Source: Lacipirellula parvula
Lineage (GTDB): Bacteria; Planctomycetota; Planctomycetia; Pirellulales; Lacipirellulaceae
DNA length: 64,000 nt
Direction: 5' to 3'
NCBI RefSeq assembly: GCF_009177095.1
Contig: NZ_AP021861.1
Location: forward strand, 4,880,501-4,944,500
The position numbers were made by a program, and so were the translations under genes. Positions 41,855 to 63,149 of this stretch are shown here, in pieces. Below the pieces are notes generated by a model. It was not told the origin of the DNA, did not search any database, and worked only from the letters and a program-made list of their open reading frames with translations. The first letter of the stretch is position 1; every line of letters begins with the position of its first letter.

Positions 41855-41967
41855 AAGGTGGGGCACTTCCTAAGCCTTCCGCTGACTAAGAGACTCAATT
41901 CGTTGGAGACTCGCTGAGGATAAAATACAGGGTGCAAACATCCTCAGTCCAGGCGGAAGCTCTCCTC

Positions 41968-44454
41968 ATGGTTCGATCATATTTCTGTTTGGCGCTCGCT
42001 CTGCTCGCGGTTCCAGCGGCTGCCGCGGAGCGGACAGGTTACCCCGTGACGCCAGCTTCGTTTGAAGCGGTCACGCTCACCGACGAGTTCTGGCTGCCGA
42101 GATTGCAGACGCAGCGCAAGGTCCTCGTCCCTTACTCTTTCCAGCAAACGGAGCAGGCGCTCGGCGATCTAAAAGTCGCGGCCGCCATTCTGGCTGGCGA
42201 CAAACCGGAAAAGCTGCCGGCCCCGGAACGATTCCGAACGTCCGACCTCTTCAAAGTGATGGAGGGAGCGGCTTACCTGCTGGCTGTCGAGCGCGACCCG
42301 GAGCTTGAGCGGCAGATGGATAAGATCGTCGAGGTAATTGCCGCAGCACAGGAGCCCGACGGTTACCTTCACCCGGCCCGCACGCTCTACCCCCATCTTC
42401 AAATCGACATGATGGGCGACGGCAAGTACGCCTACGAAGACCATAGTCACGAGCTCTATATTTGCGGCCACCTCTACGAAGCCGCCGTGGCTTACTTCCA
42501 CGCGACGGGGAAGCGAGCGCTGCTCGATGTCGCGGAAAAAAATGCGCAGCACGTCGAGCGCGTCTTTTTCGCGGGCGACCCGGCTTATAACGACGGCAAG
42601 CCAGTAAACCAGGCGCCAGGGCATGAAGAAATCGAGCTGGCTTTGGTGCGGCTTGCGGAAGCAACGAAAAACCCTCGCTATCTAAAACTCGCCCAGCGGT
42701 TTCTGGACATCCGCGGCGTAACTCATCGGCCGGAAGGGGAGGGCGTCTTCTCACCGACGTACGCCCAGCAACATGCGCCGGTAACGAAACAGACGGAGCC
42801 GGTGGGGCATGCCGTGCGCGCGACCTACCTCTACGCCGGGATGGCCGACGTGGCGGCGATGCTTGGCGTTAACGCGTATGACGAGGCGCTCGACAAAATC
42901 TGGACGAACATCGTCGACACCCGCATGCACATCACCGGCGGATTGGGAGCGGTGCACGGCATCGAAGGCTTCGGTCCGGAATACGATCTCCCTAATGCCG
43001 ATGCGTTCAACGAAACGTGCGCGGCCGTGGGCAACGTCTTCTTCAACTTCCGCATGTTTCTGCTCGAACGCGACGCGAAGTATCTCGATGTGGCCGAGGT
43101 TGCGCTCTACAACAACGTCCTCGCGGGGGTGAACTTCGCCGGCGACCGTTTCTTCTATGTCAACCCGCTCGCCGCGGACGGCGCACGGCCGTTCAACCAT
43201 GGGCACGCCGGTCGCGCTCCGTGGTTCGGCACCGCTTGCTGCCCGACGAACCTCGCGCGCCTCATTCCGCAAGTACCGGGGATGATTTTCGCTAGCGACG
43301 ACTCGGGGCTCTATCTCGGCCTCTACGCCGCAAGCCGCACGAAACTCTCACTTGCCGGCACGCCCACGGAGGTAGTCGAAACGACGAAGTATCCGTACGA
43401 TGGCCGCGTCGAAGTCACGCTGCGGCCCGAGCGGCCGACGAAGTTCGCCGTGCGATTGCGCGTGCCAACATGGACGGCCGATCGTTTCGTTCCAGGAGAG
43501 CTGTACCACTACGCAAACTCAAACGAATCCGCCCCGCCGATAAGTGTCAAAGTGAACGGCGCGGAGGTGAAGTTTCAAACGACAAAGGGCTTTGCCATCG
43601 TCGAGCGCGAGTGGCAGGCCGACGACCGCATCGAGTTGCTGCTACCGATGCCGGTGCGTGCGAGTCGCTGTCGGAACGAAGTCGCCGCCGACCGCGGCCG
43701 CATTGCGGTGACGCGGGGGCCGCTCGTCTACTGCGCCGAGTCGCCTGACAACCAGGGGCACGTCTTTAATTACCTCGTCAGCGCTGAAAACGTCGCGGAC
43801 AGCGCAAACGAGAAGTTCGTTTCGATCGCCGGCGCCGAAGTTCTTAGCCTTTCGGTTGATGCGATACGTTCCACCAAGGCGGAGTCGCTGGAAGCCGCGC
43901 GGCTCACGCTCATCCCTTACTTTGCGTGGGACAATCGCGGGACCGCCTCGATGGAGGTATGGATCCCCGCCAACGAGGCGACGCTTCGCGCGAACGAAAT
44001 CAAGGTGAGCGACAACGCCGAGCAATTTAAGTCGGCCCACGCCAGTCACACGTTCGATCAAGATCGCGAAGCGGCGATTATCGACGGCCGACTGCCGAAG
44101 AATTCATTCGACACGACCATTCCCCGTTGGACGAGTTGGCCCGAGCGAGGCAAGCCGCAAACCGTGGAGCTTGAGCTAGCCAAGCCGACCGACATTCGCA
44201 CCGTCGAAGTCTACTGGTACGACGACCGCGGCGGCGTTCAGGCGCCGGAGAGTTGGATGATGGAGACCTACGCCGACGGGCAGTGGGCGCCGTTTGCTCT
44301 CTACAACACCGATGCCTATGGCGTGGCAACCGATCAGTTCAACGTCGTTCATCCTGCCGCGCCGCTTACAGCGGAGCGGCTGCGGCTGAACATCCAGCCA
44401 CGGCCCGATGCGGCGGCGGGAATCTTGGAAGTGGTCGTCACGCCGGAGAACTGA
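41968..44454 (+). CDS. GH127-family beta-L-arabinofuranosidase-like enzyme (DUF1680)
   Basis: The product has 828 residues from the ATG at 41968, with a signal peptide ending near PAAAAE. The family features are EFWLPRLQTQRKVLVPYSF near the start, APGHEEIELALVRLAE (the acidic residue of the helix core), HITGGLGAVHGIEGF and FGTACCPTNLARLIPQVPGM, with the Cys pair that binds zinc and supplies the nucleophile. A discoidin-like C-terminal domain follows (PKPTDIRTVEVYW-type region). GH127 enzymes release L-arabinofuranose from plant or algal glycans. The export signal suggests periplasmic or extracellular polysaccharide degradation. Confidence 0.92.
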   Translation: MVRSYFCLALALLAVPAAAAERTGYPVTPASFEAVTLTDEFWLPRLQTQRKVLVPYSFQQTEQALGDLKVAAAILAGDKPEKLPAPERFRTSDLFKVMEGAAYLLAVERDPELERQMDKIVEVIAAAQEPDGYLHPARTLYPHLQIDMMGDGKYAYEDHSHELYICGHLYEAAVAYFHATGKRALLDVAEKNAQHVERVFFAGDPAYNDGKPVNQAPGHEEIELALVRLAEATKNPRYLKLAQRFLDIRGVTHRPEGEGVFSPTYAQQHAPVTKQTEPVGHAVRATYLYAGMADVAAMLGVNAYDEALDKIWTNIVDTRMHITGGLGAVHGIEGFGPEYDLPNADAFNETCAAVGNVFFNFRMFLLERDAKYLDVAEVALYNNVLAGVNFAGDRFFYVNPLAADGARPFNHGHAGRAPWFGTACCPTNLARLIPQVPGMIFASDDSGLYLGLYAASRTKLSLAGTPTEVVETTKYPYDGRVEVTLRPERPTKFAVRLRVPTWTADRFVPGELYHYANSNESAPPISVKVNGAEVKFQTTKGFAIVEREWQADDRIELLLPMPVRASRCRNEVAADRGRIAVTRGPLVYCAESPDNQGHVFNYLVSAENVADSANEKFVSIAGAEVLSLSVDAIRSTKAESLEAARLTLIPYFAWDNRGTASMEVWIPANEATLRANEIKVSDNAEQFKSAHASHTFDQDREAAIIDGRLPKNSFDTTIPRWTSWPERGKPQTVELELAKPTDIRTVEVYWYDDRGGVQAPESWMMETYADGQWAPFALYNTDAYGVATDQFNVVHPAAPLTAERLRLNIQPRPDAAAGILEVVVTPEN

Positions 44455-48579: not shown

Positions 48580-50025
48580 TCAATCGCGGGCCGTTTCAGG
48601 ACGCGAAGGTACGCTTCCGCCAATTTCGAGCTCACTGAGCCGGTTGCGGAGCGTCGTCCGCGAGATGCCCAGCACCTGGGCCGCCTGCACCTGATTGCCG
48701 TCGACGTGGGCCAGCACTTGGTCAAGCAAAATGCGGTCGACCGCGCTGTGGATGTCGCGGTAGAGATTGCGATCGGTCCGCGCGAGTTGGTCTCGCACCA
48801 TCGAGGCGATTGCGGCGACGCCGTCGGCGGGGCCGGCAGTCGACCCCGTTTCGTCATGGTCGCCGCGCACGATCGGCGGCAGCGAACCGGAAGTGATCGC
48901 ATCGCCGACGGCATGGAGTAGGGCGTACTTCACGACCGCCTGCAATTCGCGAACGTTGCCGTACCAGCGGTACATCTCCAGCCGCCGCATCGCTTCGGGC
49001 GAGACGACGCGGACTTGCCTTCCCAGTTCGCGGTTAAAGATAGAGACGAAATGGGAGACGAGCGGTTCAAGATCTTCCAGCCGTTCGCGTAGCGGAGGAA
49101 CGTCGATGACGAACCCGCGGAGCCGGTAGTAGAGGTCTTCGCGGAACGTTCCTTCGGCGACCATCGCCTCGAGGTTGCGATTAGTGGCGGCGATAATGCG
49201 AACGTTGGCGCGGAGCGTTTCGTTGCTGCCGACGCGCTGAAAGCTGCCGTCCTGCAGCAGACGCAGAACCTTCGCCTGCATGACGCCCGACATGTCGCCG
49301 ATCTCGTCGAGAAACAGCGTGCCGCCGTCGACTTGCTCGAACTTGCCGATGCGGAGGCGATCGGCCCCGGTGAACGAGCCCTTCTCGTGGCCAAACAGCT
49401 CGCTTTCGAGAATCGTCTCGGAGATGGCGGCGCAGTTGATCGCGAGAAACGGGCCGGCCGCGCGGGCGCTGTGCGCGCAAATTGCCTCGGCGATCAGTTC
49501 CTTGCCGCAGCCGCTTTCGCCTTGAATGAGTACGGTGATGTCTTGCTGCGCAACGCGGCCGATCGCTTTGAAGACTTCTTGGATGGCGGGGGAGTGGCCG
49601 ACGATCCGCTGCTGCGAACGGGGCTCCTCGTTGGCGAGAATCGTCGATTCATCATTCGTGCGACTGATCTCGAGCGCACGTTCCACATGCTCGCGGAGCT
49701 TGTCGAGTTCGATCGGCTTGAGCAGATACTCGTACGCCCCGCGTTTCATCGCCTCGACGGCGGTTTCCATGCTCGAATACGCCGTGATGATGATCACGGG
49801 GATGCGGGGATCGATGGCATGGATCTCAGTGAAAACGTCGAGCCCCGAGGCGTCGGGGAGACGAACATCGAGGATGACCGCATGGGGCTGCTCGGAGCGA
49901 ACGAGTTCGATCCCCTGAGCGGCCGTGCCTGCATTGAGCACTTCAAGCGAGTCGTGCCGAAGCGCTTTGGTCATCGAGTAGAGAAGGTTCGGCTCGTCGT
50001 CGATGATGAGAAGTTTCTGAATCAT
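48580..50025 (-). CDS. NtrC-family sigma54 response regulator
   Basis: The product has 481 residues. Residues 1 to about 120 are a receiver domain (LLIIDDEP, phosphoacceptor D53 in VILDVRLPD). Residues about 140-370 form an AAA+ sigma54-activator domain with Walker A GESGCGKE at 169-176, the loop GSFTGA at 216-221, Walker B GGTLFLDEI and the arginine-finger region. A Fis-type helix-turn-helix follows (NQVQAAQVLGISRTTLRNRL). The usual loop is GAFTGA; the Ser variant occurs in other members. It lies 28 bp downstream of the kinase gene on the same strand. Confidence 0.95.
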   Translation of the reverse strand: MIQKLLIIDDEPNLLYSMTKALRHDSLEVLNAGTAAQGIELVRSEQPHAVILDVRLPDASGLDVFTEIHAIDPRIPVIIITAYSSMETAVEAMKRGAYEYLLKPIELDKLREHVERALEISRTNDESTILANEEPRSQQRIVGHSPAIQEVFKAIGRVAQQDITVLIQGESGCGKELIAEAICAHSARAAGPFLAINCAAISETILESELFGHEKGSFTGADRLRIGKFEQVDGGTLFLDEIGDMSGVMQAKVLRLLQDGSFQRVGSNETLRANVRIIAATNRNLEAMVAEGTFREDLYYRLRGFVIDVPPLRERLEDLEPLVSHFVSIFNRELGRQVRVVSPEAMRRLEMYRWYGNVRELQAVVKYALLHAVGDAITSGSLPPIVRGDHDETGSTAGPADGVAAIASMVRDQLARTDRNLYRDIHSAVDRILLDQVLAHVDGNQVQAAQVLGISRTTLRNRLSELEIGGSVPSRPETARD

Positions 50026-50053
50026 GGGGCCTCTGCAGCGTCTCCGGTCGCAC

Positions 50054-51598
50054 TCACGATTTTACATTCTCATTCGGCAGCGGAAGCTCGATCACCAAGA
50101 CCGCGCCGCTATAGTCGCCGCGACCGAGGGCCAGTTCGCCGCCGTGCGAGCGGACAATTCGTTGGCTGACGGCAAGCCCCAATCCCATGCCGGTCTCTTT
50201 CGTGCTGTAGAAGGGCTCGAAAATCCTGGTCGCTTCGCGGGGGCCGATGCCAGCTCCGTCGTCAGCGACCTTGATACGACAGGCGGGGCGTGTGCCGTCG
50301 GCGGTCGACTCGATGGTAATCCAAATGTTGCCCCCGTTCGGCGCTGCGTGGATCGCGTTGATCAACAGATTGAGCACCACCTGTCGAATCCGCGTCGCGT
50401 CGATCTCAAGCATCACCGGCTCCGCCGGCAGGTTGCAATGGAGCGATACGTCGCGTGCATCGGCCTGCCGATGAACGAAGTCGACGGTGCTTTCGACGAT
50501 ACCGCGGACGTCGACGATCGCCCGCTGAAGCGGCGTCGGACGGGCGAAGTCGAGAAACTCGGTCAGTAACTGCTCCAGTCGGCGGATCTCATCGTCGAGA
50601 ATCTGCAGGTCGCGGCCGTCGAGACGCCCCGCGTCTTGCTGCTGTCGAGCCGTTTGGACTAGCATCTTCATCGCCATGAGCGGATTGCGAATCTCGTGCG
50701 CCAGGCCGGCCGCAAGTTGGCCGAGACTCGCCAGCTGATCGGCGCGAACGATCTCGCGATGCCGGGCATGGAGTTGCTCGACGACTTCAGTCACTTCCGT
50801 GGAGACGCGTTGCAGGGCAGGGCCGAGGTCGTCGAGGTCCAGCTTGGTGGAAACGACGACGTCGCCAGCCACTTCGCTTAGTTTGCCCGCGACGTTCTGC
50901 ATGGGGATGCGGAGTTCGACGAGCGATTTGTGGATCGTTCGTGCGATGGCGTAGCCGGCGGCAAGCGCGGCTAGGGAACCGAAGACGCCTAAGAACAGCA
51001 GCATCCGAGCGAGCTTCTGCGATTGATTCGCCGCCTCCTGACGATTGGCTTCGAGAAGGGCTTCGTCGGCGCTCAGATACTCGCGAGCCGGGGGCAACAC
51101 GTGCTCGGCGAGAATTGCTTCAGCCTGTTCCGCGAGCGCAATTTTTTCATCGTCCAGGCTCGGCGTCTTCGCCAACAGGTCCATATGCCGATAGAACATC
51201 CCGAGCCCGTCGTGGACCTGCAGAATCAACTGCTCTTCCTTGCGTGTGTGGGCCGCGGCTTCGGCACGGTGGAGCCAGACATCAATGTCGGCACGTTCCG
51301 TCTTGAAGGCTTTCAGGTCGGTGAACTTGGTTTGTTCAAGTTCCGTCAGATTGTTTCGCCAGAGGTACAGGTCGAGTTGGTGGCGGAGCTCCTGAATGTG
51401 AAGTTCCAATTCCACCGCAGCGCGAATGCTCGCGACGTTCTGCGAAAGTATTTCCTCCGAGCGATTCTGCAGTTGCTTCACATGCCACGCACCATAGCTT
51501 GCTAGGACCAATAGCAACAAGCTGACGACGATGATCAGAACGTTGATCCGATCAGCGGTGCGAATTCGTTGGCCAAGTTTGTATGTGAAGGGGTTCAT
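50054..51598 (-). CDS. Membrane sensor histidine kinase, partner of the NtrC-type regulator
   Basis: The start at 51598 follows GGAGG by seven bases and gives 514 residues. TM1 (about 18-36) and TM2 (about 198-220) enclose a helical periplasmic sensor of about 160 residues, similar to four-helix-bundle chemoreceptor domains. A HAMP-like region and a coiled coil (VTEVVEQLHARHREIV) lead to the H-box LAAGLAHEIRNPL (His at about 301), then the N-box (VVLNLLINAIHAAP), the DDGAGIG and G-box motifs of the ATPase domain. It would phosphorylate the downstream response regulator. The ligand is unknown. Confidence 0.95.
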   Translation of the reverse strand: MNPFTYKLGQRIRTADRINVLIIVVSLLLLVLASYGAWHVKQLQNRSEEILSQNVASIRAAVELELHIQELRHQLDLYLWRNNLTELEQTKFTDLKAFKTERADIDVWLHRAEAAAHTRKEEQLILQVHDGLGMFYRHMDLLAKTPSLDDEKIALAEQAEAILAEHVLPPAREYLSADEALLEANRQEAANQSQKLARMLLFLGVFGSLAALAAGYAIARTIHKSLVELRIPMQNVAGKLSEVAGDVVVSTKLDLDDLGPALQRVSTEVTEVVEQLHARHREIVRADQLASLGQLAAGLAHEIRNPLMAMKMLVQTARQQQDAGRLDGRDLQILDDEIRRLEQLLTEFLDFARPTPLQRAIVDVRGIVESTVDFVHRQADARDVSLHCNLPAEPVMLEIDATRIRQVVLNLLINAIHAAPNGGNIWITIESTADGTRPACRIKVADDGAGIGPREATRIFEPFYSTKETGMGLGLAVSQRIVRSHGGELALGRGDYSGAVLVIELPLPNENVKS

Positions 51599-51659
51599 CA
51601 GCAATCCTCCACACTAGGTCAACGAATAGTCCGCAGCGCTGCTCAACTTCGGCAGAACG

Positions 51660-53420
51660 CTAATTCTTCCGCTTCCCGGCTGCTGCCTTACCAGGTACGC
51701 GCGGATCGTGGACGCCGATGAACTGCCCCTTCTCGTCAATCTCGATCGCCTGCGCGACAGCGCCGGAATCGATCAGATCAATTTTGTGTCCGCGCTTCTC
51801 AAGCTCTTTGACGATCTCGTCGGGCATCTTCTTTTCGACCGTCAGCACATCGGGCATCCACTGCTGGTGGATACGCGGCGAGCCGACGGCATCGGCGAGC
51901 GACTGGTCGAAATCGAGCCGCCGTAAAATCGCCAGCAGCACGGAGGTAATGATCTTCGGCCCGCCCGCGGCGCCGACGGTCATCACCGGCTTGCCGTCTT
52001 TGAGCACAATCGTCGGAGTCATGCTCGAGAGAGGCCGCTTGCCCGGAGCCACCGCGTTGTTCTCCGCGCCGATCAACCCGAAAGCATTCGGTTTACCCGG
52101 CTGCGCGGAGAAATCATCCATCTCGTTATTCAGCACGATGCCCGTGCCGGGAACGATCACCTTCGAGCCGAAGGTGGTGTTCACGGTCGCCGTGATCGCC
52201 ACCCAATTGCCATCGCTGTCAGCGGCAGTGATGTGCGTGGTGTGCTTCTTGCCGAAGACGTCTTCAGCCGCGGCGGGCGGCTCGCCGTGGCTCGGAACCG
52301 CCGTGGCTTTCTTCGGGTCAATCCGCTCGGCCAGCGCGACGGCATACCCCTTGTCGATCAGCCCGCGCGGCACGCCGACTTCATCGGGGTCGCCCAACCA
52401 GTAGGCGCGGTCGGCGAACGCGAGTTTCATCGCCTCGGCGATCAGATGAATCGCTTGGGCTGGGTTGTCCTTGTATTCCTTCTTCAGATCGAACGTTTCC
52501 AGCATGTTCAGCATCTGGGCGACGTGCACGCCCCCCGAACTCGGCGGCGGAAAACCGACGATTGTCCAGTCGCGGTAGGTCGTCTTGAGCGGCTCGCGTT
52601 CGACTGGCTGATAACTAGCGAAGTCAGCTGCAGTGATAATCCCGCCGTTGTCGGTCATCCACCGGGCCACTTTTTCCGCATATGGGCCACGATAGAACCA
52701 ATCGGTTCCTCCCTCGGCCATCGCTCGGTAGGAGCGAGCGAGATCTGGCTGCTTGAGGACGTCTCCTTCTTCGTAGGCGCCGCCATCGGCTTGCAGCAAC
52801 GCTCCACGGCTGCCGGCGAACTTGTCGAGCGTTTTGGCCGAGGCGCTGAGCTTGCCGGCGTAGATTCGATCAATCGGGAATCCGTCTTCCGCAATCTTCG
52901 CGGCAGGCAGCAGTAATTCTTTGATCGGCAACTTGCCATATTTCGACACGGCTAAATCGTAAGCAGCGAAGGCTCCCGGAATGCCAATCGCGAGCGGCCC
53001 CGTCTGGCTTAGTTCAGGCACTGCCTCGCCATCGCGGAGGAACATGTCGCGCGTGGCAGCGGCTGGCGCCTCTTCACGACCGTCGATGGCGACGAGCGTG
53101 CCGTCCGCCAGATGGATCAAGATGAAGCAGCCGCCGCCGAGGCCCGAGTTATGGTTATCGACGACGCCCAGAGTCACGGCAGTGGCAACTGCGGCGTCGA
53201 TGGCGTTCCCGCCGGCCTCGAACGCCGCCACTCCCGCTTCGGTCGCCAGCGGCTGCACCGAAGCGACCATGCAAACCGCCGTCTTTTCCGAGGCGGCCGC
53301 TGATGCGGCAGCCTTCTTCTCCTTCGGCGGAGCAGCCGACTGCGCACAACCGCAGACGAGCAGCAGGGAGGGAAGAATCAAGGCGATCCGCACAAGAGGC
53401 GACGTGGCTGCGAGTTTCAT
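51660..53420 (-). CDS. ggt: Gamma-glutamyltranspeptidase, lipoprotein form
   Basis: The product has 586 residues, starting at the ATG 53418-53420. The lipobox LLLVCGC indicates a lipid-anchored precursor. The family motifs are present: AGGNAIDAAVATAVTLGVV, NSGLGGGCFILIH, and KKHTTHITAADSDGN, in which the first Thr (about 393) becomes the N-terminal nucleophile after autocleavage, and PLSSMTPTIVLKDGKPV. The enzyme hydrolyses or transfers the gamma-glutamyl group of glutathione and related peptides outside the cytoplasm. It is divergent from the cysteine-peptidase-like gene. Confidence 0.95.
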   Translation of the reverse strand: MKLAATSPLVRIALILPSLLLVCGCAQSAAPPKEKKAAASAAASEKTAVCMVASVQPLATEAGVAAFEAGGNAIDAAVATAVTLGVVDNHNSGLGGGCFILIHLADGTLVAIDGREEAPAAATRDMFLRDGEAVPELSQTGPLAIGIPGAFAAYDLAVSKYGKLPIKELLLPAAKIAEDGFPIDRIYAGKLSASAKTLDKFAGSRGALLQADGGAYEEGDVLKQPDLARSYRAMAEGGTDWFYRGPYAEKVARWMTDNGGIITAADFASYQPVEREPLKTTYRDWTIVGFPPPSSGGVHVAQMLNMLETFDLKKEYKDNPAQAIHLIAEAMKLAFADRAYWLGDPDEVGVPRGLIDKGYAVALAERIDPKKATAVPSHGEPPAAAEDVFGKKHTTHITAADSDGNWVAITATVNTTFGSKVIVPGTGIVLNNEMDDFSAQPGKPNAFGLIGAENNAVAPGKRPLSSMTPTIVLKDGKPVMTVGAAGGPKIITSVLLAILRRLDFDQSLADAVGSPRIHQQWMPDVLTVEKKMPDEIVKELEKRGHKIDLIDSGAVAQAIEIDEKGQFIGVHDPRVPGKAAAGKRKN

Positions 53421-53492
53421 CACGGTTTAGAATGATCCTGGGGGCGACGAAGACAGGTGCTGGATTGTAGGCGATACGAGCCAAGGCTGAAA

Positions 53493-54143
53493 ATGACGCG
53501 AATCATCCTAACGTGCGGATTGCTGATGCTCTGGTCGCCTGGCCTCGCGCCGCTACAAGCGGCGCAACCCGCAAAACCGGGCGACGACGTCGTGGCAGCA
53601 GCACGAGAGATTCCCGACGGCGGGACCTACGTTTGGGCCGGCGAAAGCGGCGTTCCGCACGACATTCGCCACGACGGCGCGCTGATTCTCAAAGCCCAAA
53701 AGAAAGGGACGTTCTGCAGCGGCTTTACCTTCACGGTCGCTATGGAGGCCGCCCGCGACCGCGGATTACTCCGCGGAAAGAGCGCCGACGCCGTACGACA
53801 ATTCCAACAGGAGTGGTATGGCTCGAGCGAAGAAGCGGCTGAACGCCAGTGCGCTCTGGCTGTCGAGCGGCTGGGCATCGGCCACGAAGTGAAGTCGCTG
53901 GACGAAGTCCAGCCGGGCGATTTCGTCCAAATTTGGCGGACGAACAAGACAGGCCACAGCGTGCTCTTTCTGGAATGGGTGCGCGAAGGGGGCGAAGCGG
54001 TGGGCATCAAGTACCGCAGTTCGCAGAAGTCGACCGACGGCGTCGGCGACCGCGTCGAGTACTTCGCCGACGCCCAAGGGCACGACGGCAAGGTCGATCG
54101 CCGGCGGATCTACATCGCCCGTCTCGACCCGAAGCTCGAGTAG
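53493..54143 (+). CDS. Secreted NlpC/P60-like or amidase-like cysteine hydrolase
   Basis: The ATG at 53493 (MTRIILTCGLLML) gives 216 residues and a signal peptide ending near LQAAQ. A Cys in GTFCSGFTFTVAMEAA at the start of a helix and a His in KTGHSVLFLEW with the preceding VQPGDFVQIW match the Cys-His arrangement and the VxxGDxV strand of papain-like NlpC/P60 or CHAP hydrolases. It may cleave cell-wall peptides or amide bonds. An in-frame upstream start at 53457 is possible. It is divergent from ggt with a short shared promoter region. Confidence 0.65.
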   Translation: MTRIILTCGLLMLWSPGLAPLQAAQPAKPGDDVVAAAREIPDGGTYVWAGESGVPHDIRHDGALILKAQKKGTFCSGFTFTVAMEAARDRGLLRGKSADAVRQFQQEWYGSSEEAAERQCALAVERLGIGHEVKSLDEVQPGDFVQIWRTNKTGHSVLFLEWVREGGEAVGIKYRSSQKSTDGVGDRVEYFADAQGHDGKVDRRRIYIARLDPKLE

Positions 54144-54338
54144 CCGACGGGCGAGTTGCACTTCACCGCAGCGGGCTGAAAATGCGCATGTCGCCCAAAA
54201 GGCTGCGCAGAAGCGAGCAATTACTCGCGTTCTTTTGTTTCGAAAATGGCCGCGGCGATTACAATGCGCAGTGGGTCGTTGCGCAGCCGTGCGGCGATCC
54301 CTTCTCGTTTCGGAACAGACAGAGGAAGGCACGACGGC

Positions 54339-57300
54339 ATGGCTCGTTCGTTTAATCTATTGAGTTTTGCTGCGCGCGGTCATCGTCGGAAACCGCCGAC
54401 AACGGCCGCCAACCACAGCTTTCGCTTCGAAGCGCTTGAGCCGCGAATCGCTCTTGCCGCGGACGGTCTCGTGCCGGTCGGTTACCAACCAACAGGGCCG
54501 CTGACGGGCAAGATCGTCTACACGTCGGGCGGCCACGGCATCGAGTACGAGGGCGGGTCGACCAACAACGGCTGGCTCTCCGACCGGCCAGACTACAACG
54601 AGATCGTTGAAGACTTCGGCAATCAGGACCAACTCACCTATTTTGCCGACTACCTGCTCCGCGCTGGAGCGACGGTTGTGCCGATGCGACCGGTGGGGCA
54701 TCAACTAAACGAAGTGGTGCTTGATAACGACTTGCCTGCGGTGACCTACACCGGGACGTGGTCGAATAGCAGCAGTACTAGGTACTACGACGAAGACTAT
54801 GGTGCAACGGCCGATACGGTTCCGTACCGTTATGCGAGCACCGCCGTCGGCGCTGAAACCGCCGTCGCTACCTATACCCCGAACATCCCCGAAGAGGGTT
54901 TCTATCCGGTTTACACGTGGGTTCTCGCGGGAACGGATCGGACGTCGCAACTCTATAAAATCAATCATACGGGCGGGCAAACGCAGATCCGCGTCGACCA
55001 CAGCAAAGTTGGCAGCGGCTGGGTCTATTTGGGAACATACCACTTCGATGCAGGCAGTTCCGCCAGCATGGGCTCGGTCCAAATCAGCAACGAGGGTGCG
55101 GCCGGGAAGGTCGTCATCGCTGACGCCATTCGATTCGGCAACGGCATGGGCGACCTCCGCGAGGGCGCCGGCGGGTTCGGAACAGGAACCGTTTCGGGCT
55201 ACCCGCGCGAGGACGAAAGCTCGTATTTTTGGCTCTACCGCAGCATGGGCATGGGGATCACTCCCTCGTCAGTGTTAGGAACGGGCAATGTCTCGGCGCC
55301 ATCAAACATGGCGCAGTACATGAACCAGAACTCCAACCCGTTCGGAACCAGCGTTTACATCAGCTTCCATTCCAACGGCACGACGGGCGATCCGGCGACG
55401 GCGACCGCCCGCGGCGCCATGGGGCTCTACGATTCCAGCGCCGCGACCCCGCACCAGACTGACTTGGCGCTCTTCACCGGCCGACAAATTAACCAGGATC
55501 TGCAGGCGCTCAACGGCGTCTTCGAAAACAACTGGAGCAATCGAACCACCCACTCTAGTTCGGGCGACTTCGGCGAGATCGATCTCGGCCTCTCCGCCGA
55601 GATGGACGCCACCATCATTGAGGTTGGCTTCCACGACAACACGTTGGACTCGCAGATGCTCCGCGACCAGAAGGTTCGCGATCAAATCGGCCGCTCCACG
55701 TACGAAGCCGTTCTCGAATACTTCGACGCCTGGGGGGGATTGAATGCTCCCACCACGGTGGCCTCGGCGCCGAAGATTGCGTCCGCCGTTAGCAACTCGG
55801 CGGGCGAGGTGACGCTCACTTGGTCTGCCGGGCCCTCTGGAGGAGTATATGGCGCAGCGGCCACAGGCTACCGCATTTACGCCTCGGTCGATGGCTACGG
55901 CTTCGATGGCGGCACGCTCGTTTCAGGCGCCGGCACGACGACCGCAACGCTGGCCGGGTACGATCCGACCATTCCGTACTTCTTTAAGATTGTCGCCGTC
56001 AACGCCGGCGGCGAATCAAAGGCATCAGAAGTCCTGAACGTTCTGCCCAGCGGCGGGCCAAAGCAAATTCTCGTGGTCAGTGGTTTCGATCGTTTCGATC
56101 GCACGCAGAACGCCCGCTACCCGTACTACTCGCCGGCCGGAAACTTGGTCGATCGCGTTTGGGCCCGTTACAACAATAGCTTCGACTACACCGTGCAAGT
56201 CGCCGAAGCGATTCAAGCCTCGACGAGCGGCGTGCACGTCGCGAGCGCTAGCAACGAAGCGATCATCAGCGGCGCCGTCAATTTGGCCGACTACGACGCC
56301 GTGATTTGGATTCTCGGCAACGAGTCAACGACGAACCGCACGTTCGATGCGACCGAGCAAACAAAGGTTGAAGCGTTCATCGCCGGCGGCGGGCATCTGT
56401 TCGTCACTGGCAGCGAAATCGGCTGGGATCTCGATCAAGCCAACAACGGCCGTAGCTTCTTTGAAGGAACGTTGAAGTCGAACTACGTCGCCGACGATGC
56501 GAACACGTACAACGTCGTCGCTCCCGTTGGTGGGATATTCGCCGGTCTGACCTTCTCGTTCGACAATGGCGCGCAGTACTACAACGTGAGCTACCCTGAT
56601 GTGATCGCGCCGCAAGCCGGAGCGATTTCCGCGCTGACGTACAGCGGCGGAACCGGCGGCAGTGCAGGGGTCCAGGTCGCTGGAACCGGCGGTCGCGGCA
56701 ACATTGTCGTCTTCGGCTTTCCGTTTGAAACGATCACCACCACCGCTAACCGCGCCGCGGTGATGGACCGCGTGCTCGACTTCTTCGGCGTGGGCGCCGT
56801 CGTGCCGCCGACGCCCACGGGAGATTTCAACGGCGACGGCATCGTCGATGGGGCCGACTTCCTTGCGTGGCAGCGCGGCTTCGGCGCCGCCGCTCCGACG
56901 CTGGCCGAAGGCGACGCCGACCAGAACGGCGTCGTCGATGGCGCAGACCTGGAAACCTGGAAGACCCAGTATGGGAACGTCGCGGCCCCTCCGGCCGAGT
57001 CGTTCGCCATGAGCGGTGCTCAAGCGGCGCTGATGGCGGAGACTGACGTTGAAGAGCAAGCGGCTGCAGCGTCCGCCATCCCGACGTCCCTGGGGTGGCT
57101 TAGTCAACGGCCTTCGACGGTCGAAGTCGCGGTCGCAGAAGTCCCGCTCGCACTGATGAAGAGCCATCATGCGAAGGAAGTCCCCGCGCTGCAGCAAGTC
57201 GGCGAGGCGAAGGAGTCCGTCACGCCGCGACGCGCCCGAGGTTTCGAACCAGCGCGTTCCGCTGGCGCAACCGGCGCGAATGCCGTCGACCTCGCTTTCG

Positions 57301-57341
57301 AGGATCGATCATTGGACGGTGATTGGTCGCTGTTTCGCTAA
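54339..57341 (+). CDS. Giant surface protein: amidase fold with inserted golvesin-like domain, FN3, and dockerin-like repeats
   Basis: The start at 54339, after AGAGGAAGG, gives 1000 residues. Residues 33-43 are LEPRIALAADG, a variant of the LEPR-type N-terminal motif. The N-terminal half reads as an N-acetylmuramoyl-L-alanine amidase (GGHG at 64-67, YISFHSN, then IIEVGFHDN) interrupted by a golvesin-like beta domain (about 135-275: VPYRYAST, EEGFYPVYTWV, KVVIADAIRFGNGMGD). A fibronectin type III domain (about 470-565), a Rossmann-like domain (ILVVSGFDRFDRT onward) and two EF-hand dockerin repeats (DFNGDGIVDGADFLAWQRGF, DADQNGVVDGADLETW) follow. It is probably exported and acts on or binds peptidoglycan at the surface. 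The gene has a tandem paralogue downstream. Confidence 0.75.
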   Translation: MARSFNLLSFAARGHRRKPPTTAANHSFRFEALEPRIALAADGLVPVGYQPTGPLTGKIVYTSGGHGIEYEGGSTNNGWLSDRPDYNEIVEDFGNQDQLTYFADYLLRAGATVVPMRPVGHQLNEVVLDNDLPAVTYTGTWSNSSSTRYYDEDYGATADTVPYRYASTAVGAETAVATYTPNIPEEGFYPVYTWVLAGTDRTSQLYKINHTGGQTQIRVDHSKVGSGWVYLGTYHFDAGSSASMGSVQISNEGAAGKVVIADAIRFGNGMGDLREGAGGFGTGTVSGYPREDESSYFWLYRSMGMGITPSSVLGTGNVSAPSNMAQYMNQNSNPFGTSVYISFHSNGTTGDPATATARGAMGLYDSSAATPHQTDLALFTGRQINQDLQALNGVFENNWSNRTTHSSSGDFGEIDLGLSAEMDATIIEVGFHDNTLDSQMLRDQKVRDQIGRSTYEAVLEYFDAWGGLNAPTTVASAPKIASAVSNSAGEVTLTWSAGPSGGVYGAAATGYRIYASVDGYGFDGGTLVSGAGTTTATLAGYDPTIPYFFKIVAVNAGGESKASEVLNVLPSGGPKQILVVSGFDRFDRTQNARYPYYSPAGNLVDRVWARYNNSFDYTVQVAEAIQASTSGVHVASASNEAIISGAVNLADYDAVIWILGNESTTNRTFDATEQTKVEAFIAGGGHLFVTGSEIGWDLDQANNGRSFFEGTLKSNYVADDANTYNVVAPVGGIFAGLTFSFDNGAQYYNVSYPDVIAPQAGAISALTYSGGTGGSAGVQVAGTGGRGNIVVFGFPFETITTTANRAAVMDRVLDFFGVGAVVPPTPTGDFNGDGIVDGADFLAWQRGFGAAAPTLAEGDADQNGVVDGADLETWKTQYGNVAAPPAESFAMSGAQAALMAETDVEEQAAAASAIPTSLGWLSQRPSTVEVAVAEVPLALMKSHHAKEVPALQQVGEAKESVTPRRARGFEPARSAGATGANAVDLAFEDRSLDGDWSLFR

Positions 57342-57432
57342 CGCTGACATTGGTCGAGTTACAGGGAATCTCGCGAATCCCTCACACCGTGCCGTCGCCG
57401 CGGAATCACGCCTGAGTTGAAAAGGAAGCCAC

Positions 57433-60426
57433 ATGGGCTGGAACTGGGTCTCCAATCGCAACGCACGGAAACGCCGGGATTTCTTGACAAGCGCAACGCA
57501 CGGTCGTCGATCGCGATTGTTGGCAATGGAACCGCTTGAGTGCCGTATTGCCCTCGCAGCAGATGGGCTAGTCGACGTCGGCGTGCAACCAGACGGCGGC
57601 CTTGAGGGCAAAATCGTCTACCTCAACGCAGGCCACGGCAATCAGGCGGCCAACACAACCAACGGCGCCTGGTCTTGGCAACGACCGCGGTTGCTCAACA
57701 TGATTGAGGATCTCGGCAATCAGGATCAAATGTCGTTCCTGGCCGACTACCTGTTCCGCGCCGGCGCGACGGTCGTCCCCATGCGCCCCATTGGATACCA
57801 GCCGAACGAAGTCGTGCTCGACAACGTCGACGTCGGCGTCACGTTCTCGGGCGCTTGGTCGAACAGCAACTCGACGATTTATTTCGGCGAGGCAGGCGAG
57901 ACGCCCTACAAATACGCTTCGACTTCGGCGACCGAGACCGCCGTCGCCACCTATCGGCCGACCATCACCGTCGCCGGCTACTACCCCGTCTATGCCTGGA
58001 CCCGCTCCGGCTCCGATCGAGCGGCCGACCAGCTTTACCGCGTGAACCATTCAGGCGGCAGCACCGAGGTCACGGTTAACCACCGGATGGTCGGCAACGG
58101 CATGATCTATCTCGGCACCTACTACTTCGAAGCGGGGACGGCCGGCTCGGTTGAAATCAGCAATCGTTCGAGCGAGTCAGGCCGCGTCGTCATCGCCGAT
58201 ATGATTCGCTTCGGCAACGGCATGGGCGACACCGACCAAGGCGCCGGCGTCTCGGGACGCAGTCGCGAGGACGAACTCTCGCTCTACTGGATCAAGTGGC
58301 AAGTCGACCATTCGCAGGGCGTGCCCCTCAGTTCCTACCGATCGTCAAGCACGAACGTCGACGGCGAGGCCAACGTCGGCGCCAGCCCCCGTTACGCGGC
58401 GTATATGAACCGCGAGCAGGAAGGGACGCTCGCCGACCGTTTGTTGATCAGCTACCACAGCAATGCCGGCGGCGGTCGCGGCGTCACCGTGCTCCACAAT
58501 ACTGCGTCGGGGGGAGCCACGCCCAATCAACTCCAACTCGCGCAGATCTTGGGCACTGAAATCAACGGCGACCTGGTCGCGCAAAACGGTCAATTCGAGC
58601 ACGCCTGGTACAACCGCGGCTCCGACATTACCTATCAAGCTGATTTCAACTACGGCGAGTTAAACGACGGCTGGATTAACGGCGAGTTCGACGCCACGAT
58701 CATCGAAATCGCGTTCCACGACAACCAACTCGATGCCGAGTTGCTGCGCGACGCGCGCGTCCGCGACGCCGCCGCGAAGGCCAGCTACCACGGGATCGTG
58801 AAGTATTTCCGCTCTGTGGACGGCAATTCGACGCCGCTCACGATGTTGCCGGGGAAAGTCACTCAAGTTCGCACCGAAGGAACGGTCGCCGGCTCCGTGA
58901 AAATCACCTGGACGCCGCCAGCGTCCAACTCCTACAACGGTGACGCGCCGACAGGTTATCGAATTTATGGCTCCACCAACTGCTACGGCTTCGACGGCGG
59001 AACCTACGTCGTTGGCGGGGCGACGACCAGCTTTGTGATGACGGGACTCGATGCGGCTGCCGGCCCTTACTACTTCAAGGTCGTCGCGGTCAACGCGGGG
59101 GGCGAAGGAGCCGGGTCTGAAGTCGTCGCCGCGACGCCGGTTGCCTCCGCCAAGAAAGTGCTCATCGTCAACGGATTCGACCGCCTCGATCGCAACATGA
59201 ACCCGATCCAGACAGCAGCGGGCGGTCCGGTCGAACGAGTCCGCCCTCTACAAAGCAATTCGTACGACTACGCGGTGCAGCTTGCCTCCGCGATCAGAGC
59301 GAATGCTCCGAATCTGCAAATCGACGCCACGTCGAATGAGTACGTTTCCTCAGGCGCAATCAATCTCTCCGACTACGAAGCCGTCTTTTGGATTCTCGGT
59401 GAGGAATCTACGACCACGCGCACGTTCGACGCCCTTGAGCAGACGAAAGTCTCCGCCTACCTCTCAAGCGGCGGCATGCTGTTCTTATCCGGCTCAGAGA
59501 TCGGTTGGGATCTGGAAGCGCAAGGCGGCGGCGCTTCGTTCTACAACAACGTCTTGAAAGCCGACTACGTCGCCGACGATGCAGCCACCTATAGCGTCAC
59601 TGGCGCGGCTGGTTCGATTTTCGCGGGTCTCTCGGCGACCTTCGACAACGGCGCGCAAACCTACAACGTCGACTACCCCGATCGTATCGCGCCGCTCGGC
59701 GGCGCTGCCGCGGCGCTCAACTACGCGACGGGCGGCGCGGCTGCCATTCAATACACCGATGGCGCCTCCGGCTCGCAAATCGTGATGCTGGCGTTCCCCT
59801 TCGAAACCATCACCTCCCCAGCCATGCGTAACTCGGTGATGCAACGGGTAGTTGATTATTTCAACCTGCTCGCCCCGCCGACGCCCGTCGCCGACTTCAA
59901 CAGCGACGGGATGGTCGACGGAGTCGACTTCCTGGCCTGGCAACGCGGCTTCGGCAAAACTGACGCCGCCATGCAGGATGGCGATGCCGATTTCGACGGC
60001 ACCGTTGGAGGGAGCGATCTGGATGTTTGGAAAGCTCAATTCGGGGGCAGCCCGCCATCGCCCCTGGTCGCTTCCGTTGCTGCGATCAGTGCAGAAGAGG
60101 GAGACGCTCTCTCGCCAGTGCCGGAATCTTCTCAAATGCCTGCCCATCAATCCGCTAGCCTCGATGGTCTCGCGGGTATTCCCAGTTTGAGGACAGCCAG
60201 CGAATCTCCACGGCGTCGGACGGCTTCGCAAGACGCCCGTTGGTCGGAAGCTTCCGGATCCTCCAAATCGATGCTAACTGACGCTGCCGTAACAACGCTG
60301 GAAGGCCGCAAGAAGCCTTTGCCCGAGATAGAACTCGCCTCCGGAAACGCGGTCGATAATGCAGCCCGTACAGCGATCTTTGAAAAATTGGGGGGCAGCC
60401 CGCTTGAGTCGGCGCTCGCGCGATAG
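57433..60426 (+). CDS. Tandem paralogue of the giant amidase/golvesin surface protein
   Basis: The product has 997 residues and follows its paralogue after 91 bp in the same direction. All segments are present in the same order: LECRIALAADG (Glu-Cys-Arg replacing the paralogue's Glu-Pro-Arg), NAGHG, the inserted golvesin-like domain (AGYYPVYAWTRSG, RVVIADMIRFGNGMGD), ISYHSN and IIEIAFHDN of the amidase fold, a fibronectin domain, the Rossmann-like domain (VLIVNGFDRLDRN, AVFWILGEES) and dockerin repeats (DFNSDGMVDGVDFLAWQRGF). The Ser/Arg-rich tail differs. The pair probably arose by duplication. Confidence 0.75.
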   Translation: MGWNWVSNRNARKRRDFLTSATHGRRSRLLAMEPLECRIALAADGLVDVGVQPDGGLEGKIVYLNAGHGNQAANTTNGAWSWQRPRLLNMIEDLGNQDQMSFLADYLFRAGATVVPMRPIGYQPNEVVLDNVDVGVTFSGAWSNSNSTIYFGEAGETPYKYASTSATETAVATYRPTITVAGYYPVYAWTRSGSDRAADQLYRVNHSGGSTEVTVNHRMVGNGMIYLGTYYFEAGTAGSVEISNRSSESGRVVIADMIRFGNGMGDTDQGAGVSGRSREDELSLYWIKWQVDHSQGVPLSSYRSSSTNVDGEANVGASPRYAAYMNREQEGTLADRLLISYHSNAGGGRGVTVLHNTASGGATPNQLQLAQILGTEINGDLVAQNGQFEHAWYNRGSDITYQADFNYGELNDGWINGEFDATIIEIAFHDNQLDAELLRDARVRDAAAKASYHGIVKYFRSVDGNSTPLTMLPGKVTQVRTEGTVAGSVKITWTPPASNSYNGDAPTGYRIYGSTNCYGFDGGTYVVGGATTSFVMTGLDAAAGPYYFKVVAVNAGGEGAGSEVVAATPVASAKKVLIVNGFDRLDRNMNPIQTAAGGPVERVRPLQSNSYDYAVQLASAIRANAPNLQIDATSNEYVSSGAINLSDYEAVFWILGEESTTTRTFDALEQTKVSAYLSSGGMLFLSGSEIGWDLEAQGGGASFYNNVLKADYVADDAATYSVTGAAGSIFAGLSATFDNGAQTYNVDYPDRIAPLGGAAAALNYATGGAAAIQYTDGASGSQIVMLAFPFETITSPAMRNSVMQRVVDYFNLLAPPTPVADFNSDGMVDGVDFLAWQRGFGKTDAAMQDGDADFDGTVGGSDLDVWKAQFGGSPPSPLVASVAAISAEEGDALSPVPESSQMPAHQSASLDGLAGIPSLRTASESPRRRTASQDARWSEASGSSKSMLTDAAVTTLEGRKKPLPEIELASGNAVDNAARTAIFEKLGGSPLESALAR

Positions 60427-61397: not shown

Positions 61398-63149
61398 ATG
61401 ATGAAGCACCGCATCAAGTTGGTAGCCGCCGCCGTCGCGGCCTCGGGAGTGGCCGCGATCGCATCGCCGGCATTTGCCGTTTCGTACGCCTCGAACGTGA
61501 CGAAGACCGGGACAACGGTCAACTTCATCCTGAATTCGCCGGCTGACATTCTCAGCTACAGCATCAATGGCGGGGCCCCGATCACGCTCGACGGCACCAC
61601 CAAGGGCGCCAAGACGTTTAATCTTACCTCGGCCTCCGATACGTTTTCGATCATCGCCGATCGGACCGACGCGACCGGCTACACTAAGCTGACCGGCAAC
61701 ACGGTCGCCGGCGGCGGTAACGCACTCTTCACCGCCTCGCCGGAAGCGGGCCTCACGACGATTAGCGACGACACGAGCGTCCTCAATCGGTTCTCGAATC
61801 CTCGCGGCGTTAGCATCAGCAACAACCCGAACGCCCCGAACTTCGGGACGGTCTACATTGCCAGTAGCGCCGGCACCGTGACGCCGGGCACGCAAACGAT
61901 CGCCGCCAGCGGCGTCTACCCGGCGCGGACGGTCACCGGCAGCGGTCTTTACGCACTCCGCTCGGACGGCTCCGATGCCTACGGCCAAGGCGACGCCGCC
62001 AAGAATCCGATGGTCGACGGCTTCCCGGCTTGGGTCGATTCGAGCAACAACAGCCCATTCCGCAACTACGTCGCTGCCGACGGCACTGTCTACGTCAGCG
62101 ATTTCTCGGACGCCAACGGCAGCATTATCGCGGTTCAGCCTGACATGAATAGCGCGGCCGCAGTCCTCGCCGGCTTCGGCGGCCCGACGACGCTGCCCGT
62201 AGGTCAAAACCACGGCAGCACTCAAGCCGTCTATGTCGAAGGTTCGACTGCTGCTGGCAATTTGAAGGTCTACACTCTCGACGAAGACCTCACGAGCGCG
62301 CAGTTCGGCGGAGCGTCGACGACCGATCAAAACAGCATCTGGGAATACAACATCGGCTCCGGCCCGCTCTCGTCGACCGTGACTCCCACGCGGATCACCG
62401 ACGCCGGGATTCCGCTTGCCACGAGCGACATGCAACGTGGCGCCGACGGCAAGTGGTACGTCATGCAAACTCGCAACGGCGCCCTTAACTCGCCGACGTT
62501 GTATGTCGTTTCAGCTGACGGTTCGACCGTTTTGTTCAACTCGCTGGACGCCACCCGGACGCTCACTGCCAATCCGACGGCCGATCGCGACATCTTGCAA
62601 TATTGCAATGGCGTTGCCATCTCGCCCGACCAAAAGTGGATGGCAATGATCCTCAATATTGGCGACGTCGCCGTGATCCCGCTGATCGACGGCATTCCGG
62701 ACCTCGCCAACAAAGCGGTCGTCAGCACCACCCCGGACATCATCTCGGGCCGCGACATCGCCTTCGACGCTGCCGGCAATATCCACTACCTCAGCAGCGG
62801 ACAGGCGCTCTACCGCGTCCTCGCGCCCGGCGGTCACTCGATTGCCACGACGACCTGGAACGGCACTTCGTACGCCTTCAACGTGCAAAACATCACGACG
62901 CCCGTTGGTCTGCCTGGCGACTTCAACAGCGATAGCAAGGTCGACGGCGCCGACTTCCTCCTGTGGCAGCGCGGCGGCTCGCCGACCCCGCTGAGCCAAG
63001 CCGACCTCGATACTTGGAAGGCCAACTTCGGCACGTCGGCCGCGACGGTAGCGGCCTCCGCAGTGCCGGAACCTGCCAGCTTCGTCAGCGGTTTGACCGC
63101 GGCTGCCTTCGGCATGCTGGCGCTCCGTCGCCGGCAAGCCAAGAAGTAA
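61398..63149 (+). CDS. Secreted beta-propeller-like protein with dockerin and PEP-CTERM
   Basis: The product has 583 residues; AAGGAG precedes the start. Signal peptide residues 1-28 (VAAAVAASGVAAIASPAFAV). The body has repeated NHL/WD-like strands (RGVSISNNP, TVYIASSAG, NYVAADGTVYVSDF, KVYTLDEDL, RDIAFDAAGNIHYLSSG), which suggests a six- or seven-bladed propeller. A single dockerin-like repeat follows (GDFNSDSKVDGADFLLWQRG), then the PEP-CTERM tail VPEPASFVSGLTAAAFGMLA with RRRQAKK. It is presumably exported, processed by an exosortase and surface-anchored; the ligand is unknown. Another secreted gene follows after 95 bp. Confidence 0.75.
   Translation: MMKHRIKLVAAAVAASGVAAIASPAFAVSYASNVTKTGTTVNFILNSPADILSYSINGGAPITLDGTTKGAKTFNLTSASDTFSIIADRTDATGYTKLTGNTVAGGGNALFTASPEAGLTTISDDTSVLNRFSNPRGVSISNNPNAPNFGTVYIASSAGTVTPGTQTIAASGVYPARTVTGSGLYALRSDGSDAYGQGDAAKNPMVDGFPAWVDSSNNSPFRNYVAADGTVYVSDFSDANGSIIAVQPDMNSAAAVLAGFGGPTTLPVGQNHGSTQAVYVEGSTAAGNLKVYTLDEDLTSAQFGGASTTDQNSIWEYNIGSGPLSSTVTPTRITDAGIPLATSDMQRGADGKWYVMQTRNGALNSPTLYVVSADGSTVLFNSLDATRTLTANPTADRDILQYCNGVAISPDQKWMAMILNIGDVAVIPLIDGIPDLANKAVVSTTPDIISGRDIAFDAAGNIHYLSSGQALYRVLAPGGHSIATTTWNGTSYAFNVQNITTPVGLPGDFNSDSKVDGADFLLWQRGGSPTPLSQADLDTWKANFGTSAATVAASAVPEPASFVSGLTAAAFGMLALRRRQAKK

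Follow-up and report, generated by a model that had tools for sequence, protein, structure and literature searches.

Two tandem proteins of Lacipirellula parvula with a golvesin-type module nested inside an Amidase_3 fold, beside a gamma-glutamyltransferase

The locus and its genes

Two large genes, W1 and W2, lie in tandem in the stretch of Lacipirellula parvula DNA analysed here (the window, 64,000 nucleotides, to which all positions refer), next to a gamma-glutamyltransferase (GGT) gene. The features of the locus are as follows.

51660..53423, minus strand: gamma-glutamyltransferase (GGT), divergent from W1 (PF01019, 558 bits; TIGR00066 above cut-off)
53457..54143, plus strand: small exported protein of 228 aa between GGT and W1, without Pfam match, with an invariant Cys (CSGF) and His (GHSVL)
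54339..57341, plus strand: nested amidase W1 (P0001, 1000 aa; Pfam, LEPR-XLL call, AF2 models)
54504..54698, plus strand: N-terminal segment of the W1 amidase fold (residues 56-120; AF2 model, structural and profile alignment), with predicted zinc ligands His66 and Glu91, and Arg117
54699..55148, plus strand: inserted Golvesin_C/CBM35-like domain of W1 (residues 121-270; PF25275, E 1.1e-27; match to 6f2p)
55149..55736, plus strand: C-terminal segment of the W1 amidase fold (residues 271-466; PF01520 at 332-458), with His344, Glu428, Glu413 and His432
55764..56039, plus strand: fn3 of W1 (about residues 476-567; PF00041, 1.8e-06)
56064..56800, plus strand: GATase1-like (ThuA/DUF4960-related) domain of W1 (AF2 model, structure matches)
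56820..56954, plus strand: dockerin-like repeat pair of W1 (residues 828-872; PF00404 just under cut-off; calcium-loop motifs by eye)
57433..60426, plus strand: nested amidase W2 (P0002, 997 aa), with the W1 architecture but of another subfamily
57811..58215, plus strand: inserted Golvesin_C of W2 (residues 127-261; PF25275, 4.9e-33)

W1 consists, in order, of a LEPR-type N-terminus, a split Amidase_3 domain with an inserted Golvesin_C domain, fn3, the GATase1-like domain, the dockerin and a C-terminal tail; its start could also be an in-frame ATG at 54246. W2 is 47% identical to W1. The amidase motifs read GGHG (His66), SFHSN (His344) and IEVGFHDN (Glu428) in W1, and AGHG, SYHSN and IEIAFHDN in W2. 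When the proteins were searched against Pfam, Golvesin_C scored well over its cut-off of 31.6 bits in both W1 (residues 127-267, 97.2 bits) and W2 (114.4 bits). Downstream of it, the C-terminal half of Amidase_3 (profile positions 63-68 to 172-173 of 174) was matched at residues 332-458 and 335-456, respectively, with a score above the cut-off of 27 in W1 (29.8 bits) and one in W2 that was just below it in the protein scan (24.2) and reached 27.2 in the genome scan.

The preliminary description of this DNA, made from the sequence, had listed fibronectin, Rossmann-like and dockerin modules behind the amidase part. Fn3 was above the cut-off in both proteins, and the Rossmann-like part corresponds to the GATase1-like domain, whereas the dockerin stayed under its cut-off of 22.9 bits in W1 (21.3) and W2 (18.1); a third copy of the architecture in the genome scored 23.1. 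Matches to ThuA in W1 (22.4 bits, cut-off 33.4) and to DUF4960 in W2 were also under the cut-offs, and the domain of W1 was not classed as a ThuA enzyme. At the N-terminus, where a LEPR/LECR-type motif had been noted in both proteins, LEPR-XLL was called in W1 only (19.8 bits, cut-off 17); W2 has LECR at the same place with no profile call, and the LEPR match of the third copy (PF07595) was below cut-off. The absence of a PEP-CTERM anchor held, with neither protein matched. The LEPR and dockerin regions point to export and to assembly at the surface; the pair are putative surface or cell-wall enzymes, as the preliminary description had suggested.

A second AF2 model, of the C-terminal part of W1 (pLDDT 90.5), places a class I glutamine-amidotransferase-like fold after fn3; the best matches of this fold were GH42 GATase-like domains (Z 15-18) and the GATase1-like protein 3rht of Planctomyces limnophilus (Z 15.1). 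On reading the sequence, the usual nucleophilic Cys was not seen in the motif GSEIGWDL of this domain, so that a structural role is likely.

GGT has, by reading, a lipoprotein-like signal sequence, and the HTTH nucleophile motif occurs in its orthologues. A sigma-54-dependent response regulator and a histidine kinase (48580-51604, minus strand) adjoin it, are retained in the closest relatives (L041, L069, L093) and are possible regulators of the locus. The 228-aa exported protein is found in 18 of 43 Lacipirellulaceae genomes and, in the closest relatives, adjoins GGT and the nested amidase; its link to the locus is loose. The Cys and His of its motifs FCSGF and GHSVLF had raised the idea of an NlpC/P60- or CHAP-like peptidase, which was rejected: Pfam gave nothing relevant up to E 10, and a four-sequence profile searched against the PDB matched no cysteine peptidase. 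On the 3' side of the pair lies a 583-aa exported protein (61398-63149), retained in L069 and L093, that matches PEP-CTERM weakly, and the window also encodes a GH127 beta-L-arabinofuranosidase with a C-terminal F5/8 type C domain (41932-44454). A promoter and terminator scan of the locus remained at chance level.

A golvesin-type module within the Amidase_3 fold

The nested unit was modelled by AF2 from an alignment of 59 sequences from the window and from further loci, with a mean pLDDT of 92.8 and a pTM of 0.93. Amidase_3 enzymes of solved structure align over model residues 20-430 (protein residues 56-466) and over nearly their whole length. For example, C. difficile CD2761 (4rn7) superposes over 182 of its 186 residues with a Z of 22.6 and an rmsd of 2.0 Å, and comparable values were obtained with 5emi (Z 22.0), CwlD (7rag, Z 21.2) and CwlV (1jwq, Z 20.3). 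The family shares with the MurNAc-L-Ala amidases CwlV, CwlD, CD2761, AmiA (8c2o) and AmiC (4bin) the whole catalytic fold (Z 20-22.6), the H-E-H ligands and the catalytic Glu. It differs from them in two respects. First, about 195 extra residues, which include a complete CBM-like domain, lie between the Arg of the TR motif and the second zinc His; the spacing from Arg117 to His344 is 194-232 residues in 61 family members and 27-35 in canonical planctomycete Amidase_3. Second, the nested family has the extra invariant residues Glu413 and His432.

The insert occupies the loop that runs from the conserved Arg117, which follows the second strand, to the strand with the second zinc His (His344). 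Model residues 85-234 (protein 121-270) superpose on residues 901-1040 of Paenibacillus xanthan lyase (6f2p), in its C-terminal domain, with a Z of 16.6 over 136 residues and 32% identity; CBM35 modules (Z 9-10) and MiXBM (7ehg, Z 9.7) are also matched, and Foldseek and sequence-profile searches agree with this assignment. Unlike 6f2p and the Golvesin_C (PF25275) and CBM35-like modules, the insert is nested in an enzyme domain rather than placed at a terminus. Its likeness to CBM84 and xanthan-binding modules is the fold similarity to 6f2p and 7ehg only.

With the insert of W1 spliced out, the Amidase_3 score rose no further than from 29.8 to 33.4 bits, and Pfam still missed the N-terminal half, so that a profile-profile alignment was needed. 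When the family profile without the insert was aligned with canonical planctomycete Amidase_3, the probability was 99%, and His66, Glu91, His344 and Glu428 paired with H, E, H and E. These four residues are identical in all 61 homologues from Planctomycetota and Sumerlaeota, as are Arg83, Arg117, Arg290, Glu293, Glu413, His432 and Asp437, and the four can also be read in Bacteroidota homologues. Their equivalents in CwlD are His49, Glu65, His133 and Glu199, the roles of which are known (PMC8496864). By alignment and superposition, the predicted zinc ligands of W1 are His66, Glu91 and His344, with Glu428 as the predicted catalytic residue. In contrast, Glu413, His432 and Arg83 differ from canonical amidases; Glu413 and His432, which adjoin the catalytic motif, are invariant here all the same, and there is room for an altered substrate.

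The structural model together with 61 homologues with invariant ligands excludes a chance resemblance. The nesting that the preliminary description had proposed is therefore borne out: Pfam places Golvesin_C ahead of the C-terminal half of Amidase_3 in both proteins, and in the model of the unit a complete golvesin-type (CBM35/xanthan-lyase-CBM-like) module is predicted inside the Amidase_3 fold, with the flanking segments aligning as a single amidase domain. The expectation that the GHG, HSN and Glu residues form one zinc site is likewise in line with the superposition, from which they appear to converge.

Distribution of the family and its GGT partner

The third copy, about 0.44 Mb away, the GGT neighbour, the spread of the family and the GATase1-like identity of the Rossmann-like part go beyond the preliminary description. 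A fourth golvesin protein of the genome (L001, 1489-2580, minus strand) combines Amidase_2 with a C-terminal Golvesin_C, so that within one genome the module occurs with two unrelated amidase folds, nested in Amidase_3 and appended to Amidase_2. Full-length matches to the nested unit were found in several planctomycete classes, Sumerlaeota and Bacteroidota. Within Lacipirellulaceae the nested amidase is present in 32 of 43 genomes, and it is rare in the rest of the order; every Amidase_3 match reported in the 43 genomes is of the nested type (match start at profile position 47 or later, ORF of more than 800 aa).

The duplication suggested by the preliminary description was confirmed, but as an old one. 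In the tree, W1 and the third copy split from W2 with full support, and Sumerlaeota and other classes are placed around them. A recent tandem duplication was rejected, because each protein falls in its own supported subfamily; W1 and W2 are, on this phylogeny, old and distinct subfamilies. Other genera also have tandem pairs of the W1/W2 type. In a single assembly (G519), three copies lie in a row, two of them fused as a single 1953-aa ORF with two full domain sets; that ORF (L091, 6757-12618) has two nested units, each with fn3, GATase-like and dockerin parts, and the adjoining third copy has an ordinary signal peptide and is without dockerin. Many relatives have a second golvesin domain near the C-terminus, after the GATase-like part (L042, L048, L049, L051, L053, L054, L055, L061, L068 and others). 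Human-gut 'Bacteriophage sp.' records (MT835912, MT835805, MT836533) matched over 89-96% of the nested unit and may be Bacteroidota DNA mislabelled as phage.

Two Bacteroidota proteins named 'xanthan lyase', WP_154395863.1 and WP_195399325.1, are nested amidases with the golvesin insert at about 27-29% identity. WP_195399325.1 also resembles W1 and W2 in having fn3 (Pfam, just under cut-off) and, by reading, a 'GFDR' Rossmann part. Unlike W1 and W2, both are without LEPR or dockerin, and no GGT is among the annotated neighbours shown. Their name seems to be borrowed from the binding module.

A GGT orthologue of at least 54% identity occurs in all 32 Lacipirellulaceae genomes with a nested amidase and in 2 of the 11 without (Fisher p 1e-7, which is only indicative as the genomes are related), although paralogous GGTs occur elsewhere. 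Of the 26 genomes that have the nested amidase and GGT on one contig, 24 have the two gene starts no more than 7 kb apart; the two genes are split between contigs in six fragmented assemblies. In the tree and by GGT, the nearest relatives with names are Lacipirellula, Bythopirellula, Botrimarina, Aeoliella and Adhaeretor, and the family was accordingly treated as Lacipirellulaceae.

Such adjacency could also reflect slow rearrangement within Lacipirellulaceae, or inherited regulation, with no shared pathway, which concerns the GGT part of our interpretation only. All cases do come from this one bacterial family, and the flanking kinase and regulator have been kept in the closest relatives too. 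However, in distant genera no tested neighbour other than GGT is retained, the 24 pairs are 13 divergent and 11 co-directional, and the orthologue is scarce where the nested amidase is missing, although paralogues occur elsewhere. We consider this explanation improbable, yet a serious competitor. Adjacency kept despite varied orientation and the loss of other neighbours argues for a functional link between GGT and the nested amidase, as judged from genome comparison. No such linkage was observed in the Sumerlaeota, Bacteroidota and other planctomycete classes that were sampled, which counts against the GGT part.

Proposed function and its meaning for planctomycetes

We propose, with a probability of roughly 60%, that W1 and W2 are exported amidases of the MurNAc-L-Ala type, that their nested module keeps glycan at the catalytic groove, and that they work with the exported GGT on stem peptides. 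The zinc site would cleave the MurNAc-L-Ala bond of peptidoglycan, either of the cell's own remodelled wall or of dead or competing bacteria. The golvesin module, tethered at both ends, would bind a glycan strand and keep it at the groove, and the fn3, GATase1-like and dockerin domains may serve attachment or assembly. Exported GGT would then process the freed gamma-glutamyl stem peptides. A stem peptide with an L-Ala-capped Glu is no standard GGT substrate and would need prior removal of the L-Ala, which counts against this last step; the order of reactions given here is a presumed one.

Planctomycetes possess peptidoglycan (PMC4432640), and AmiA and AmiB have been reported absent from them (PMC5147048). 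Together with the finding that all Amidase_3 domains detected in the 43 genomes are nested, the reported absence supports the peptidoglycan reading. That the genome also joins the golvesin module to Amidase_2 is consistent with a ligand near the bond between MurNAc and the peptide. Three points count against this reading, namely the weak sequence similarity to Amidase_3 in the N-terminal half, the invariant Glu413, His432 and Arg83, which could mean another amide substrate, and the non-peptidoglycan polysaccharides bound by the solved relatives of the golvesin module.

The last two points lead to an enzyme for a different polymer: the golvesin module would recognise an exopolysaccharide or capsule, and the amidase would strip from it a substituent, acyl or peptide. 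Among solved structures the insert is closest to the xanthan lyase domain, with MiXBM matched as well, and the family-specific Glu413 and His432 stand beside the catalytic motif. We nevertheless regard this as unlikely, as nearly all matched Amidase_3 structures are annotated as peptidoglycan amidases or endolysins, the module is also found with Amidase_2, and the GGT linkage suggests peptide products. Another alternative is that the amidase fold has lost catalysis and has a structural role, as part of a surface scaffold or adhesin. This would suit a large exported multidomain protein that has fn3, dockerin and a GATase1-like domain lacking the usual Cys, but it is very improbable given the invariance of the four catalytic positions in all 61 homologues and their readability in Bacteroidota.

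A more far-reaching version of the peptidoglycan amidase reading, which we offer only tentatively, is that the nested amidase and GGT form a dedicated peptidoglycan-dismantling module that replaces AmiA/B/C-type amidases in the FtsZ-less Lacipirellulaceae. The CBM could make the amidase glycan-gated, with bound glycan opening or ordering the active site, and the tandem subfamilies might act as one complex, as suggested by the 1953-aa fusion in a relative. Budding planctomycetes divide without FtsZ (PVC review, PMC5147048).

In conclusion, we computed the fold, the nesting, the ligand conservation and the distribution of this family, as well as its linkage to and co-occurrence with GGT. Its single domains are known and the proteins are already in databases; we regard the nested enzyme as a variant of Amidase_3. 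No paper describing a nested golvesin-amidase enzyme was found in a literature search of incomplete coverage, in which 'golvesin' led mainly to a Dictyostelium Golgi/contractile-vacuole protein and 'xanthan lyase' with Bacteroides and peptidoglycan to nothing relevant. The nested family offers plausible candidates for the missing amidases of planctomycetes, which stayed hidden because the domain is split and Pfam hardly detects one half of it. Should the amidase reading be true, the 'xanthan lyase' label on the same architecture in human-gut Bacteroidota would be incorrect. In addition, the conserved GGT partner makes the proposed pathway directly testable.
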